DNA of 64,000 nt from Antedon mediterranea (Eukaryota > Echinodermata > Crinoidea > Comatulida > Antedonidae). Under the pieces are notes generated by a model, which did no database searches, was not told where the DNA came from, and worked only from the letters and a program-made list of their open reading frames with translations. Below, one piece after another: positions 42,901 through 63,568 of the stretch. The position numbers were made by a program, and so were the translations under genes. The stretch covers positions 24,530,412-24,594,411 of the forward strand of contig NC_092675.1 in the NCBI RefSeq assembly GCF_964355755.1. Direction: 5' to 3'. The stretch's first letter is position 1; every line of letters begins with the position of its first letter.

Positions 42901-45249
42901 ATGCTAGTCAAGTCGCCCCATCGCAAAGTCGCCCCATACAAAGTCGCCCCTTACACAGTCGCCCCATCGCAAAGTCGCCCCAAAACAAAGTCGCCCCGAC
43001 ATAGTCGCCCTATCGCAAAGTCGCCCCATCGCAAAGTCGCCCCAACGCAAAGTCGCTCCATCGCAAAGTCGCCCCATCACAAAGTCGCCCTATCGCAAAG
43101 TCGCCCCAAAACGTTAAAATATAGTTTACAAGTGCGTAAAATGTTGCAATGATACACAAAATAACACAGAACGTGTAGGCATAAAAGGGGAAGCCCCGCC
43201 ATGTAGTCTCAGGTGGTCACACGATCGGCACGCACCCCCATATCAGAGAGGAAGCCCCGACTAATCACTCCGCGGTCGCACTCCGCGGTCGCACTAACGT
43301 GCTAGCTTACCATGAGAGGGAAACCCCCGTAATTACTCCGCCGTTGCCTTTGTCGCACTCTACAACGCACCATCTGAAGATGGGGAAACCCCGCCGGAGT
43401 TTTACGATGATATCAGTCGCGTTCGAAATCGGTCGCGATAAAATGATGTTATACGATCTAGATTATTTTTACTTTGGTCGATGAATATTTATTATTATTA
43501 TTAGGCCTATATTAATAATTGATTTTTTATTTTATTTTACAGGTCAGTATTATGAGAAAGATGTGTGGCTTAAAAAATGACAATTTGTAAACATAGTTTA
43601 AGATATAGTATTATCCAGCATAATGTCATTTAACAGTACATACGTACTTATTTAAATGTGAAATATTTTATAGGAAACGTAGGCTACGTCTGTGTCTTTC
43701 ATTTTATATGCAACAAATTACGTAAAACAATTTATTTATAAACATTCAGTTTACTATTATATACATAGTATTACAGTGAACATTGATTGTAAGACTCCTG
43801 GAAAGGCAATCCCATCATTATATCCATTATAAAATTGCATCATATCACCACTATATGTCGTAAATGATAACGTGCGTGTGTGTATTTGTCGTACGTCCGT
43901 GTACGTATTATTCCGTGCCTCTTCACTGTCTTGTTTAATTTAAAATTAAATAAACACCCGATATGAGAGGATATTTATTAGGCATTATAATTAGAATGTT
44001 CTATAACCAAAAGGATTGAAAAGAATTTCTTCAGTAAAATGATCATTGTGCTGTTGAATAAAAGGCGACTCGCCATCTGAAACATTCTCTGAATCCAATC
44101 GGAGCTGCGCCTTCTGGTATCTGTTTCCTCACAGCTGCTACGTCTTTCTGCTGACCGTCGGGGATTCCCCTTTTTAAAAAACACGCACACGATACTGTAC
44201 GATGGTTTTTCCATGGTCAAAATGTCGCGTTTTAATTTTACTAATACCTGCATGTAAAACAATCACATCGGCGATGAAATCCCCTTTTTTTTCTTCATTT
44301 TGAAAAGTCATTATAAAATTAAGACACATAACTTGTCAATAAATGCAAAATGATCAATAAGTAGCCTATAACACTTATTGTCTTACAACACTGTTATTGT
44401 TTTAACTACTGTAAATCTATACGAAGGCCTACTACACATTTATACATTTATTATATTATCCTAAAAAATTAGCTGGTATCCACGCGTAGGTTGAAGAAAG
44501 ATTCGTAATTGTGGCTGTGGTAACTAATTTTAAAATCATATTAAATTAACATTTTCGAAACTATAAATCAGGGATAATCTTTTTAGGGACTATTTTTTAA
44601 ATGATTTTTAAAAAGCACATCACTCCATTAAAACCTGTAAAATAAAAATTTAAACACAAATTATGTATATAATAGGATAAACATTATAATGTATACGACA
44701 TTTAGCGCGACCAAAGTAACAACGCAATCGATATCAAACGCACCCAATATGATTAAAACCGATAAAAACTCCGGCGGGGTTTCCCCATCTTCAGATGGTG
44801 CGTTGTAGAGCGCGACAACGGCAACGGCGGAGTAATTACAGGGGTTTCCCTCTCATGGTGAGCTAGCACGTTAGTGCGACCGCGGAGTGATTAGTCGGGG
44901 GCTTCCTCTCTGATGGGGGTGCGTGCCGATCGTGTGACCTGAGACTACATGGCGGGGCTTCCCCTATGCCTACACGTTCTGTGTTATTTTGTGTATCATT
45001 GCAACATTTTACGCACTTGTAAACTATTTTTTAACGTTTTGGGGCGACTTTGCAATGGGGCGACTTTGCGTTGGGGCGACTTTGCGATGGGGCGACTTTG
45101 CGATGGGGCGACTTTGTAATGGGGCGACTTTGCGATGGGGCGACTGTGCCGGGGCGACTTTGTTTTGGGGCGACTTTGCGATGGGGCGACTGTGTAAGGG
45201 GCGACTTTGTATGGGGCGACTTTGCGATGGGGCGACTTGACTGGATCCC
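42901..45249. mobile_element. 2.35-kb foldback transposon with tandem-repeat termini
   Basis: Two inverted arms of about 550-580 bp (42901-43485 and 44703-45249) enclose a 1.2-kb spacer. The outer part of each arm is an array of 13 units of about 16 bp (AAGTCGCCCCATCGC and its inverse); variants such as ATAC, TTACAC and AAAAC appear in the same order in both arms. The inner part is unique inverted sequence, for example GAAGATGGGGAAACCCCGCC. TGTCCGG flanks the element on both sides (42894-42900 and 45250-45256), a 7-bp target duplication. The spacer has no recognisable transposase; the 94-codon minus frame at 44262-43978 matches nothing I know. Long arms made of tandem repeats with a 7-bp duplication recall Drosophila FB/Galileo (P superfamily) elements, but the assignment is inference. 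Confidence 0.88.
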
Positions 45250-45376: not shown

Positions 45377-48300
45377 ATGATGGCAGTGGTTTCAACAAGC
45401 GCCAATATTTCTCTTCCAATATTTTTAGTAGATGCCTTCGCAGCAAAACAGTTTCAAGGAAATCCTGCAGCAGTATGCTTGTTACAAAATGAGGTAACTT
45501 TGTATTCGGCCATTATGAAGGCCCGTACTAGCCTAGCTAGTAGGCCTACTAGGCCTAGGCAGGCCTAGGATAGCTAGCTAGAGTAGGCTAGGCTAGGTAG
45601 GCTACTACGTAATCCTACTTTAGTACTTACTACTTACTATAACGGCTGACCCTGTCCAGCCCCAGTGGCATTGGGCCTCTACTTCTAGCGTTTAATTTTG
45701 CTCGCGATACATGCACACCGCTTGAGTATGCGTTGAAAATATGTCCTGTTCCATAATATTTTTATACTAGGCTATTAGGCCTAGGCCTAGTATAGTCTCT
45801 TTAACTTGCCTAGCTAGTACTAGGACTTACTAATTAGGGGCTAGTTAGCCCTAGGCCTAGGCTATTCAGAAACTGAAATAACATTTATGTGTTTTTATTA
45901 ACTTTGAACACTAGATTTTGAGTGATGTTCAAATGCTTCAGATTGCACAAGAAATGAAACAATCAGAAACAGCATTTGTATCTCCAGTTAATCAAGCTGA
46001 TAATTTTCAAACAGGTTTGACTGAATTTTTATTAGAGCTATGTTTTCCGTCTTACAGAATGAATCATTTGTTAAATAATATGGACAATTATATAAGGAAT
46101 GAAATGGTGCTTCCATTCCGTGAAACATAAAAATGTGTTTATGTAATTGTAACTTAACTTTAATATATAAATTCAGGGACAATTATTTAATTAATTTAAC
46201 AAATTGATCTCAGGTTCTAATTTCAATCTACGATGGTTTACACCTACCAATGAAGTAAATCTATGTGGACATGCTACTATGGCAACATCTGCAGTAATAT
46301 TTGAAAAGAAATGTAAGTTTTTACATAAAGAACATAATCATTATCAAAACAGATCGCATGAAGCCTTTTATGTTGTTTGTTGTTTACCTAACAATCAGTA
46401 GTGAGTGAGTGGCCGAGTGGTTAAGACAGTGGAACCGTAATTACTTAGCCATAACATCGGCAGGGGTTCGAGGCTCACTCACTCCATGGTTCTGGTGGTA
46501 GAACAAGTCTTCTCGGATAAGGACTATAAACCGTAGGTCCAGTGTACACATCTAGCTCGTGTGCACTTTAAAGAACCTAGTACATCTTTCGAGACGAGTA
46601 GGGGGTTACCCCGGTGTATTAGTACATCACAGCCACTGATCATAACTGGGCTCTCTGGGAGACCAGTCTTTGATTGACTGAAGAGGTTAGCCAATACCCA
46701 GTATATTTCAATTAATCAATCATACTATACTGCAAGGTTTAAACACTTTCTGACTCAACTGCCAAATAAAATATAAACCTCTTTACATTGCAGTATGATT
46801 CTGTAATTTGTTATGCCTCACATATCCCCTCCCCCTCATTAAATAATTCATGGCAGCAGAAACAGACAAATTTTAAGGTTTACTGTAATGGCGATTGTGG
46901 GTCAGAACGGCATTTAACTGATTATAACGGTAATAGTTGTTTGATTGACAGTTGTAGTGTCTTGAAAATATGACTACCTTATCACATTGCATTTTGGGTA
47001 ATTTTAACGTAGAAATGCTGCCAGTCTATTTTTAAATACCGGGTAACTGGTTTATTCGGCGATATGCAGGTTCTTGTTTATAGAATACATACACTATCCA
47101 GACTGCCTTACATTTCATTATAAGCAGCTTACAGTATATTTTAAAACAATTTTATCACAAAGAATTAAGATTTATTGTTTTATATTTATTATTTTTTTAT
47201 TTTACAGGTAACGTTAATGAACAGTTAACCTTCCACACCAGAAGTGGCCAACTGATGGTAAAAACATGTCATGAGGATTTAGTAATGGACTTTCCCATGT
47301 ACCCAACAGTTCCACAGGTTTGTTGTGCTAATTAATTATCTTCTTTTTAATTAATGATATCCTCTGGTTTTAATAACTTTGTGGAAATATTAACAATTTA
47401 TAATTAATTATGATATTAAATAACTACTCCATTGAACCCTTACATGATCAACAGACAAACAAGTGGCAATCGCTTAAAATATAAATAAATTTTTCCCAAA
47501 ATGGGCTTCCGTAGATAAGGTATGGGACGATGGTTTTGCATAAATCATTCTGCATAACATATAATTAATTTCGTTGTACTATTTTTTACATTTTATAGGA
47601 GGAATCTACTGTAAAAGAATTAATAAAGGTTTGTTTTTAACAATGAATTATTATTTTTAACAAATAACATATTATACTATATATTGTACTATTGCATTAA
47701 ATACTATATTTGTTCACATATTTTTTTTGTCTTTAATTAATTAAAACAACAAAAAAGAATGTCTTTTGAATCTAGATAAAATTATTTTAAAATTGGAGAG
47801 CGTTTGATGCCTCAATTAATCTTTTACTTAGTTTTCTCGTTTGAATGAGCTATACAAAAACTAATATCACAACTTTTAAGTTGTGATATTAGTATTTTAT
47901 TATTTTACTTAAAAGTCCTGCATAAATGACTTTTATCTTTTGAAACAACTTCAGATTGTTGTTGATGATTTACTAATAAAAGAGGTTGAATATTCAGAAA
48001 AAACTGGCAAACTTTTGATCCGGTTACAGGATTCATACACAAGGTATCCTTAACTAGGTTATTTGTACACTGTACCTCTTTGCTTTTGTTTTCACTGAAT
48101 TAAATCATGTTTTTTAATTATTAGTTGAGTATTGGTGAGATTATACCACAGGACCTTCAATTTGCAACTTTACAATTTGGAGATCTTGTTATAAGGTTGC
48201 CAGATACATTATCAAGGTCAGCTTAATTTGGTTTTCCAAAAAAATATAAATATTGAAGTGGACAGTCATGTTGACACGCACTGAACATATGATGTAATGG

Positions 48301-49684
48301 CGGATGGTACGCAAGTGTATTGACCAGGCCAGACTATGTACTGTATAGGCGTAGTTTTGGTAGCTTATGCCTAGCCTAGATTCTAAATACCCTGAATGAA
48401 GGCTGTTATAGGACCTAACTTGTATTATTAAAATAATATATTTAAAATAACCACTAAAAAAAGTCATCGCAAGATCATTCTCCGCCATGATTGTGATAAA
48501 CAGCTTTATGACGTTATTTATATGTCTACTCGGTAATATGTCACTGAATACGTTCTCAAATTTAGCAGTCAGCGTTTTAAATCATAAAAATGTCGACATA
48601 GTAGACATGCAAACTGTTCCAAATATTATGGAAATGCTCTTTTATGTCATAATAATGCAAACATGCTCTTATGTTGGAAAGCAGCATGTGTTAATGTTGT
48701 TTATTTGTTTGCCATTTAATTCTATATGTAAATGCTCTTCAATATGTAAATAATGTATTAATTGTAATGTAATTATTATCATACAATTTTAATTATTTAT
48801 AACAGAAATGACCTTGAGAACTTAAAACCTGACACAACCGCCATGATGAAAGCGCAACCTAATGGCCCTGTTAAAGGTGTCATAATTACTTTGAAAGGAA
48901 GCCATGAAAATGGTGCTACAGATGACAATGATCAACAATTTGATTTTATTTCGCGTTACTTTGCACCCTGGAATGGAATACCTGAAGACCCAGTAACTGG
49001 TAAGTTTACATTTGCAAGTATACAATTTTATTTAATTATTTACAATTTACATTAACTTTTGATTAATTAATATTGTTTACCATTTATATATTTAGGAGCT
49101 GCGCACACAGTACTTGCCAGTTATTGGTCACGTCAACTGAACAAGACCAGTCTTTATGGTATTTGATACATTTAATTATGATTAATGGCATTAAATGGCA
49201 CTATAGCTCATTTTTTCAAAAGAACACCAACAGAGAAATAAGCTCCAAATGTCCACCAGTCTGTGAGAAATTGCTCAGTTCTCATTGACAAGCCCTAGGC
49301 CAGTTTTTCGGGCCATTATCTGGAATCATTCTATATGGCATAGCGTAAACTTAGCATGAATCTACCATAGCCATTTAAAACCAACAGCCAACTGAAATGT
49401 TCTTTAAAACTCAAAGGAGTTGTTTCATTGTAAAAGAGAGGGCAGCCTTGTCAAAAATAATTGTATAGTTTATGTAAAAAAAAAATTAAATGTAAAGTTT
49501 ATTATCGTCCAAATTAAAATCACAAATAGTTTTATATTATTACTCTTGTTTTTTTTTTCTTACAGCCAGACAATGTTCAGCAAGGGGAGGCAATGTTCGG
49601 TTGACTGTCAAAGAGACTCGAGTAGATTTAGCAGGAAAAGCAAGCATTGTTGTTGAAGGAAAAATTAATCTCAACAAATGTTAA
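45377..49684 (+). CDS. PBLD: PhzF-family isomerase-like protein PBLD
   Basis: Nine exons join in frame into 306 residues (human 288): 45377-45493, 45915-46014, 46214-46312, 47208-47317, 47599-47628, 47955-48043, 48806-48999, 49096-49158, 49566-49684 (TAA). An alternative sixth exon at 48125-48216 gives 307. Family motifs are [19 protein letters not shown] near the N-terminus, SETAF with the catalytic glutamate at 57, [15 protein letters not shown] with His92, and [19 protein letters not shown] with Asp243; these three correspond to the catalytic residues of bacterial PhzF. The animal protein's substrate is not settled; it is cytosolic and has been linked to TGF-beta signalling in mammals. The start at 45377 fits the family N-terminus, but the frame is open upstream into the foldback element, with in-frame ATGs at 45227 and 45119. 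Intron 3 carries a tRNA-derived SINE. Confidence 0.95.
46401..46702 (+). mobile_element. tRNA-derived SINE, copy 2, in PBLD intron 3
   Basis: The head GTGGCCGAGTGGTTAAGACA and B box GGGGTTCGAGGCTCACTC resemble a Leu/Ser-type tRNA. The roughly 220-bp body (ttctcggataaggactataa, cgagacgagtagggggttac, cataactgggctctctggga) is shared with 34165-34425 and, in part, 27630-27735. Confidence 0.8.
47861..47892. repeat. Perfect 15-bp-arm palindrome in PBLD intron 5
   Basis: CTAATATCACAACTT, a TT loop, and AAGTTGTGATATTAG. The RNA would form a stable hairpin 62 nt upstream of alternative exon 6a. Confidence 0.9.
48125..48216 (+). CDS. PBLD: Alternative exon 6b of PBLD
   Basis: Acceptor ttaattattag and donor AG|gtcagc bound 92 nt, in the same phases (0 in, 2 out) as exon 6a (47955-48043, 89 nt). 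It translates [20 protein letters not shown], then [11 protein letters not shown], which aligns with exon 6a ending [12 protein letters not shown] and with the vertebrate segment KLLVRLSDVYNR. Either exon joins exon 7 in frame. Using both puts a TGA straight after the junction (AG+T, then TGA), so they should be mutually exclusive. The intron between them is 81 nt. No stop codons or indels have built up, which argues that it is used. Confidence 0.85.
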
Positions 49685-53168: not shown

Positions 53169-53837
53169 CAATGTGATAATTAACAATGTCTAAATATATT
53201 ATTATAAAATTATATACAAATATTATAATCATATTTAGGCATTATTAAATACAGTATCTGAGCATTTTCAGAGAATATTTCTACACCAACTAGTGCATGA
53301 TTAATACAATATTTTGTTTGGACAAAGTGGATAAAAAAAACATTTTTAGTGAATTTAGGCATTAGGTTTTTTTAGAGAGCGATTATGTCTATATACCAGA
53401 ATGATGTCTAGCCTAGCCTAGTCTACTATGCACCGCCCTATTGTCCATACATTTTCGTTCCCGATATGGCCACTTGCATTCAAACAAAGCAAGTGGGGGT
53501 GTCACGGTGGGTAGGTGGATTTGATCGAAGGATCATTTCTATATACAAATGTTCCGCTAAATTTAACTTGAACATTAACAATAATTATGTTTAGGCTACT
53601 AACCGACAGATGTTCTCTATGTTGATTAACACTACGTTGTGCGCAATTACAATAATTACTTTGGTTATCTTGATATAAAAGTGACGTCATCAGACATTTA
53701 GATGCACTAGTGACAGGTAATACTGATTAACATGAAATTAATAATATTGCTCGCTGAGTTCTATACATTATAATACGACAGACGGTAGACGATCGCTACA
53801 GCGGCAACAGTTGGTAGATGACAACCAGGAAAGCATC

Positions 53838-54425
53838 ATGTTTGACCAAACTAAGTGTTCAGGTACAAATCGACATTCTCAAATAGTTCATATCCTAGAA
53901 AAGTTTCTTCGATTTACAAACGTTCAGAAAGAACTCAACAAGGTTGACTATTCTAATATAAATTCCTCATCTGAAGACATGGAAAACGAACAGAGCATAG
54001 ATTTGAGTGACGAACAAGAAACGGAGAAGTTTACATTTGTAGTCAGACCTAGCGAAGTAATAGATAAACCTTCAACAATTCGACGACGAACTTTGAGTAG
54101 ATTTGCTAAATCACGAGTTAGTGCAAGAAAAATTCAATCTAAGCGAACTGTTAACTTTTCGTCATGTTGCAAAGATTGGTCATGCCAACGTCAGTGTGAA
54201 CGAACAAGTCCCTCTAATAGTCCTGTTCGTCGCCTGGCCGCGAACGCACGAGAGCGTCGTCGAATGGATTGTCTGAACACGGCATTTGACGACCTTCGCG
54301 CAGTTTTGCCATCACTTGGAGGGAATCAGAAGCTGTCTAAATATGATACATTACACATGGCAATGACGTATATAGACGAGCTGATGAAACTTCTAGAGAG
54401 TACTTCTAAGAAAACTATAAACTGA
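53838..54425 (+). CDS. Atonal-type basic helix-loop-helix transcription factor
   Basis: A single-exon gene of 195 residues. The bHLH domain occupies about residues 131-187: basic region [17 protein letters not shown], helix 1 [13 protein letters not shown], loop [12 protein letters not shown], helix 2 [23 protein letters not shown] and KLSKY(E/D)TL are typical of the atonal/ATOH group, which acts in the nucleus as a heterodimer with E proteins on E-box DNA to specify neurons and sensory cells. The ATOH1/5/8 subgroup cannot be settled: DCLN and [10 protein letters not shown] differ from ATOH1 and ATOH7. The N-terminal 130 residues have an acidic stretch ([18 protein letters not shown]) followed by a basic one. 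The frame is open to 53811, but the first real ATG is 53838. Lack of introns is usual for atonal genes. Poly(A) signal at 54666-54671. Confidence 0.9.
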
Positions 54426-63387: not shown

Positions 63388-63568
63388 AAGCTTGGTTCCC
63401 ACTAGAACGTAACGCAAGGACGTAAACGCAACGCAAGCGAATTGACCAATCACAAGCGATGGCTTATTCGCTTGTGATTGCTAACTGTCTATAACTTCGC
63501 TTGTCATTGGTTAAAACGCTTGCGTTGCGTTTACGTCCTTGCGTTACGTTCTAGTGGGAACCAAGCTT
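63388..63568. mobile_element. 181-bp near-perfect hairpin MITE
   Basis: AAGCTTGGTTCCCACTAGAA then CGTAACGCAAGGACGTAAAC on the left, with the exact inverse on the right, and arms of about 60 bp, followed inside by gcaagcgaa/ttcgcttg words. TA borders both ends. It is nearly intact, so it is probably a recent insertion. The family is shared with 15362-15560. Confidence 0.88.

Follow-up and report, generated by a model that had tools for sequence, protein, structure and literature searches.

A candidate pair of mutually exclusive exons in the PBLD gene of the crinoid Antedon mediterranea

The window analysed here is a stretch of 64,000 nucleotides on contig 6 of the Antedon mediterranea genome (NC_092675.1, positions 24,530,412 to 24,594,411). 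It contains a PBLD gene on the plus strand (45377–49684) with nine coding-exon positions, one of which is occupied by two alternative exons. According to a protein search of the whole genome (354 Mb, 18 contigs), PBLD is a single-copy gene. The coding part of exon 1 begins with the ATG (45377–45493) and was located by the spliced frame and by the genome protein search. The spliced frame also defines exon 2 (45915–46014, with the SETAF motif), exon 3 (46214–46312, with the CGHAT motif), exon 4 (47208–47317), exon 5 (47599–47628, only 30 nt, exit phase 0), exon 7 (48806–48999, accepting phase 2 and encoding EDPVT of the EDPVTG motif), exon 8 (49096–49158) and exon 9 (49566–49684), which includes the stop codon. 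The alternative exons 6a (47955–48043, 89 nt) and 6b (48125–48216, 92 nt), also on the plus strand, are both entered in phase 0 and left in phase 2, and are separated by an intron of 81 nt (48044–48124); their assignment is based on frame, similarity, shuffling controls and family residues. The predicted protein matches the PhzF family profile PF02567 over its full length, with 199.1 bits if 6a is used and 201 bits if 6b is used (cut-off 27). The gene is thus PBLD, a member of the PhzF family, as an earlier, sequence-only reading of this DNA had proposed. The catalytic motifs SETAF (E), CGHAT (H) and EDPVTG (D) are all present, and all of them lie outside exon 6.

At the exon 7/8 junction (48999–49110) the EDPVTG motif is followed by Ala (EDPVTGAAH), whereas many bacterial relatives have Ser directly after this motif. 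Human PBLD has Ser at this position as well. This change from Ser to Ala suggests that catalytic details of the protein may differ. About 4 kb downstream of PBLD, a single open frame encodes an atonal-type bHLH domain (53745–54425). The locus resembles vertebrate PBLD (MAWBP) in both its PhzF-family product and its nearby atonal-type bHLH gene. Since human ATOH7 adjoins PBLD (PMC2883590), the neighbourhood fits PBLD orthology and possibly represents an old microsynteny.

A mobile element with long terminal inverted repeats is located at 42906–45242. Its arms are 96–97% complementary, it carries a minisatellite (GGGGCGACTTTGC), and the arm has at least 40 close matches genome-wide, several of them as inverted pairs about 1.1–1.5 kb apart. 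The element ends 135 nt upstream of the start codon of PBLD, whose promoter it may carry or displace. A repeat resembling a tRNA-derived SINE was recognized by eye in intron 3 (46404–46720).

Exons 6a and 6b are both flanked by AG and GT (ttcag|ATT...AAG|gtatcc for 6a, attag|TTG...AAG|gtcagc for 6b), and the coordinates given in the sequence-only reading proved exact. Because entry and exit phases are the same, each exon is compatible with exons 5 and 7. Joining 5-6a-7 results in an open frame of 306 amino acids, joining 5-6b-7 in one of 307 amino acids. If both exons are joined, the frame ends in ...YTS* with a TGA directly past the junction codon, and if both are skipped, a TGA is reached within two codons (...LIKK*). 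The frame relations and the immediate stop upon joint inclusion had been claimed before and are borne out by these translations. None of the window's open AG..GT stretches proved to be a third copy of the exon, and a genome-wide search returned no further match to 6b.

The relatedness of the two translations, also proposed earlier, was evaluated against a control set of 575 stop-free AG..GT stretches of 74–107 nt with matching length class and phase, taken from both strands of the whole window. Global alignment of the 6a and 6b peptides (BLOSUM62) gave a score of 36. The control stretches reached a mean of −20 against 6a (sd 12, n=575), and the best of those not overlapping 6a or 6b scored 12. 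When the residues of 6b were shuffled, the real global score was reached in none of 200,000 cases and the real local score in 62 of 200,000. At the nucleotide level, identity between the exons amounts to 38, 72 and 55% at codon positions 1, 2 and 3, compared to 26, 29 and 33% for random codon pairing, so the duplication is still traceable in the DNA itself. Exons 6a and 6b are thus a real duplication at the DNA level, and their shared residue pattern has been preserved.

In order to judge whether one copy is decayed, we compared the segment with 78 prokaryotic relatives, which show the pattern P..L..ALG..P......DYL over exon 6. Of these relatives, 90% have the Gly of this pattern and 83% have the Asp; both residues are present in 6b and neither in 6a. 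Conversely, 6a has YSE...LLIRL in common with a Heimdallarchaeota relative (L013), and 6b has lost part of it. Each exon holds family residues that the other has lost, so neither is simply the decayed copy. Human PBLD has a single exon where the 6a/6b pair stands here. Alignment to this human segment gave scores of 63 for 6a and 35 for 6b, which serve as a lead rather than a test. Both exons score far above shuffles in this comparison, 6a more so (p ~5e-5 for 6b), and 6a is the closer match of the two exon versions. Codon usage is similar in the two exons (scores of 1.4 for 6b and 2.0 for 6a), and each ranks within roughly the top 10% when compared with 394 pseudo-exons.

It is nevertheless conceivable, if improbable, that one of the exons is no longer used and is a relic whose frame and splice ends have survived by chance or because it is young, leaving the gene with one functional isoform. 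The donors of both exons are weak, matching the consensus at 5 of 9 positions (6a) and 6 of 9 positions (6b); the constitutive exon 8 also matches at 5 of 9. At a length of only some 29 codons, open frames are not uncommon in unselected copies: when neutral decay of 6a to the observed identity was simulated, the frame stayed open in 10% of the runs, and 10% of these open runs kept a peptide score of at least 36, with intact splice ends not yet required. Furthermore, pairwise dN/dS between 6a and 6b is not shown to be below 1, as its bootstrap 95% range extends from 0.49 to 4.6, and we rejected it as proof of selection because it is too noisy. What speaks against a relic is that an unselected copy at 55% nucleotide identity would rarely combine an intact frame with the peptide pattern and two intact splice ends, and that family residues are reciprocally retained in the two exons. 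The earlier view of an old, selected duplication with no decay is upheld as to the lack of decay, mainly through the family residues that 6b keeps and 6a has lost. With dN/dS uninformative, it is the frame, the splice sites and the retained residues that back the word selected.

Less probable still is a switch between productive and unproductive transcripts, in which one exon is constitutive and addition of the other introduces the TGA and lowers expression through nonsense-mediated decay. Double inclusion does lead to an immediate TGA, and a branch-site candidate 51 nt downstream of the 6a donor makes splicing of 6a to 6b physically possible. However, an exon acting purely as poison could do without a coding frame, and 6b is open, phase-matched and conserved as a peptide. 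The least credible reading, that 6b is an intronic open stretch between AG and GT resembling 6a by chance, could draw on its full-length PhzF-profile score, which ranks only 184th of 575 among random open peptides (shuffle p 0.1), but is already largely refuted by the control set and the shuffles, since direct similarity to the adjoining 6a is far beyond the former and the global score is never reached in the latter. That both isoforms reach equal Pfam scores was likewise discarded as proof that 6b fits the fold: random open peptides of similar length, inserted at this position, score equally, and as the prokaryotic profile holds little information over the exon 6 segment, we put no weight on equal domain scores.

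Choosing one exon of a pair is a well-known kind of splicing, and alpha-tropomyosin and Dscam exemplify its steric and RNA-docking types. The PBLD locus resembles these types in the short intron between the alternatives, in a TTAAC 10 nt from the 6a donor, and in a strong hairpin upstream of 6a. It is unlike them in that another branch-site candidate sits at a normal position and pairing between introns does not exceed that of shuffles. The 81-nt intron contains two YTNAY sites, TTAAC at +10 and TTCAC at +51 from the 6a donor. In human clusters, length incompatibility was reported for 60% and a distance between donor and branch point of less than 50 nt for 9% (PMC5740500); TTCAC at +51 is just beyond this steric limit. 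The presence of both sites makes steric exclusion possible, not forced, and exclusion by way of TTAAC is not compelling with TTCAC at a normal distance. The AG-free zone ahead of 6b measures 65 nt, which is not unusual in a gene whose introns have zones of 34–119 nt. Pairing of the docking/selector type was rejected for want of a signal above shuffles: duplex energies for intron 5 were no better than those of shuffles, and the downstream intron gave a weak result (16/200). No special mechanism of exclusion stands out.

Intron 5 harbours a perfect 16-bp hairpin with a tiny loop (47860–47893, plus strand) 61 nt upstream of 6a. With z = −5.05 it is the strongest non-simple hairpin of the window, and no other copies of it were found genome-wide. 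It may or may not matter for exon choice. A second long hairpin of the window, with a 13-bp perfect stem and an 8-nt loop, lies at 63447–63480.

To see which part of the protein differs between the forms, we mapped the exon borders onto a structure model of the archaeal relative L013 (mean pLDDT 95), which matches crystal structures of the PhzF family, e.g., 1s7j and 4dun. On this model exon 6 covers the end of a helix, a glycine cap and the beta-hairpin that opens domain 2. The earlier placement of the segment between the protein's two halves is thus roughly right. The border of exons 5 and 6 lies inside the helix, and exon 7 starts ahead of the next helix. No invariant columns were seen within exon 6 in our small alignment. 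As the catalytic motifs are encoded by other exons and the swap is confined to helix end and hairpin, both forms should fold, keep the motifs and differ locally. An exon border within a helix has been taken as favouring mutually exclusive over cassette exons (PMC5740500), and by this criterion the 5/6 border counts toward mutually exclusive exons.

Homology, frame logic and the lack of a decayed copy make mutually exclusive use the best reading of the pair, and we infer that both exons are spliced in vivo. We consider it likely that a single PBLD coding exon was duplicated in tandem long ago to give 6a and 6b, and that splicing places either 6a or 6b between exons 5 and 7. Exclusivity would be achieved mainly through the frame, with double or zero inclusion giving a premature stop and presumably transcript decay; the short 81-nt intron perhaps helps. 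The gene probably yields two protein isoforms with the PhzF fold, which would have the same catalytic motifs and differ in the helix cap and the beta-hairpin at the start of domain 2. Such a swap would fine-tune stability or the handling of partners or substrates and would not add a new activity. More tentatively, and rather doubtfully at present, PBLD of this animal lineage may be an enzyme that is tuned through an exon swap, both regulated and conserved since ancient times, in which the different domain-2 hairpin would affect substrate or partner.

The pair shares several features with described tandem duplicated exon substitutions, namely neighbouring homologous exons with equal phases, a segment within a folded domain, a length not divisible by three, and joint inclusion that breaks the frame (PMC9741552, PMC5740500). 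Ion-channel, membrane and muscle genes are overrepresented among the described cases (PMC9741552, PMC5740500). PBLD was not found as a case in the papers searched, and the pair presented here is a candidate predicted from sequence. Searches over 5.4 million open-access papers yielded no account of mutually exclusive exons in PBLD, in agreement with the earlier statement that none was known; public gene sets may already annotate such an isoform pair. The locus is therefore a candidate for a known kind of splicing in a gene for which we found no earlier report.

To our knowledge, the natural role of animal PBLD is still unclear. Studies of the protein have dealt with liver cancer, inflammation and antiviral signalling (PMC4808015, PMC8166876, PMC11450232). 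A natural pair of forms, distinct in a single segment, would offer a ready-made experiment on the function of this segment. For splicing biology, the pair would bring a small protein of the PhzF fold, probably a soluble enzyme, into a class rich in channel, membrane and muscle proteins. If true, a regulated exon swap would give a handle on the reaction of animal PBLD.
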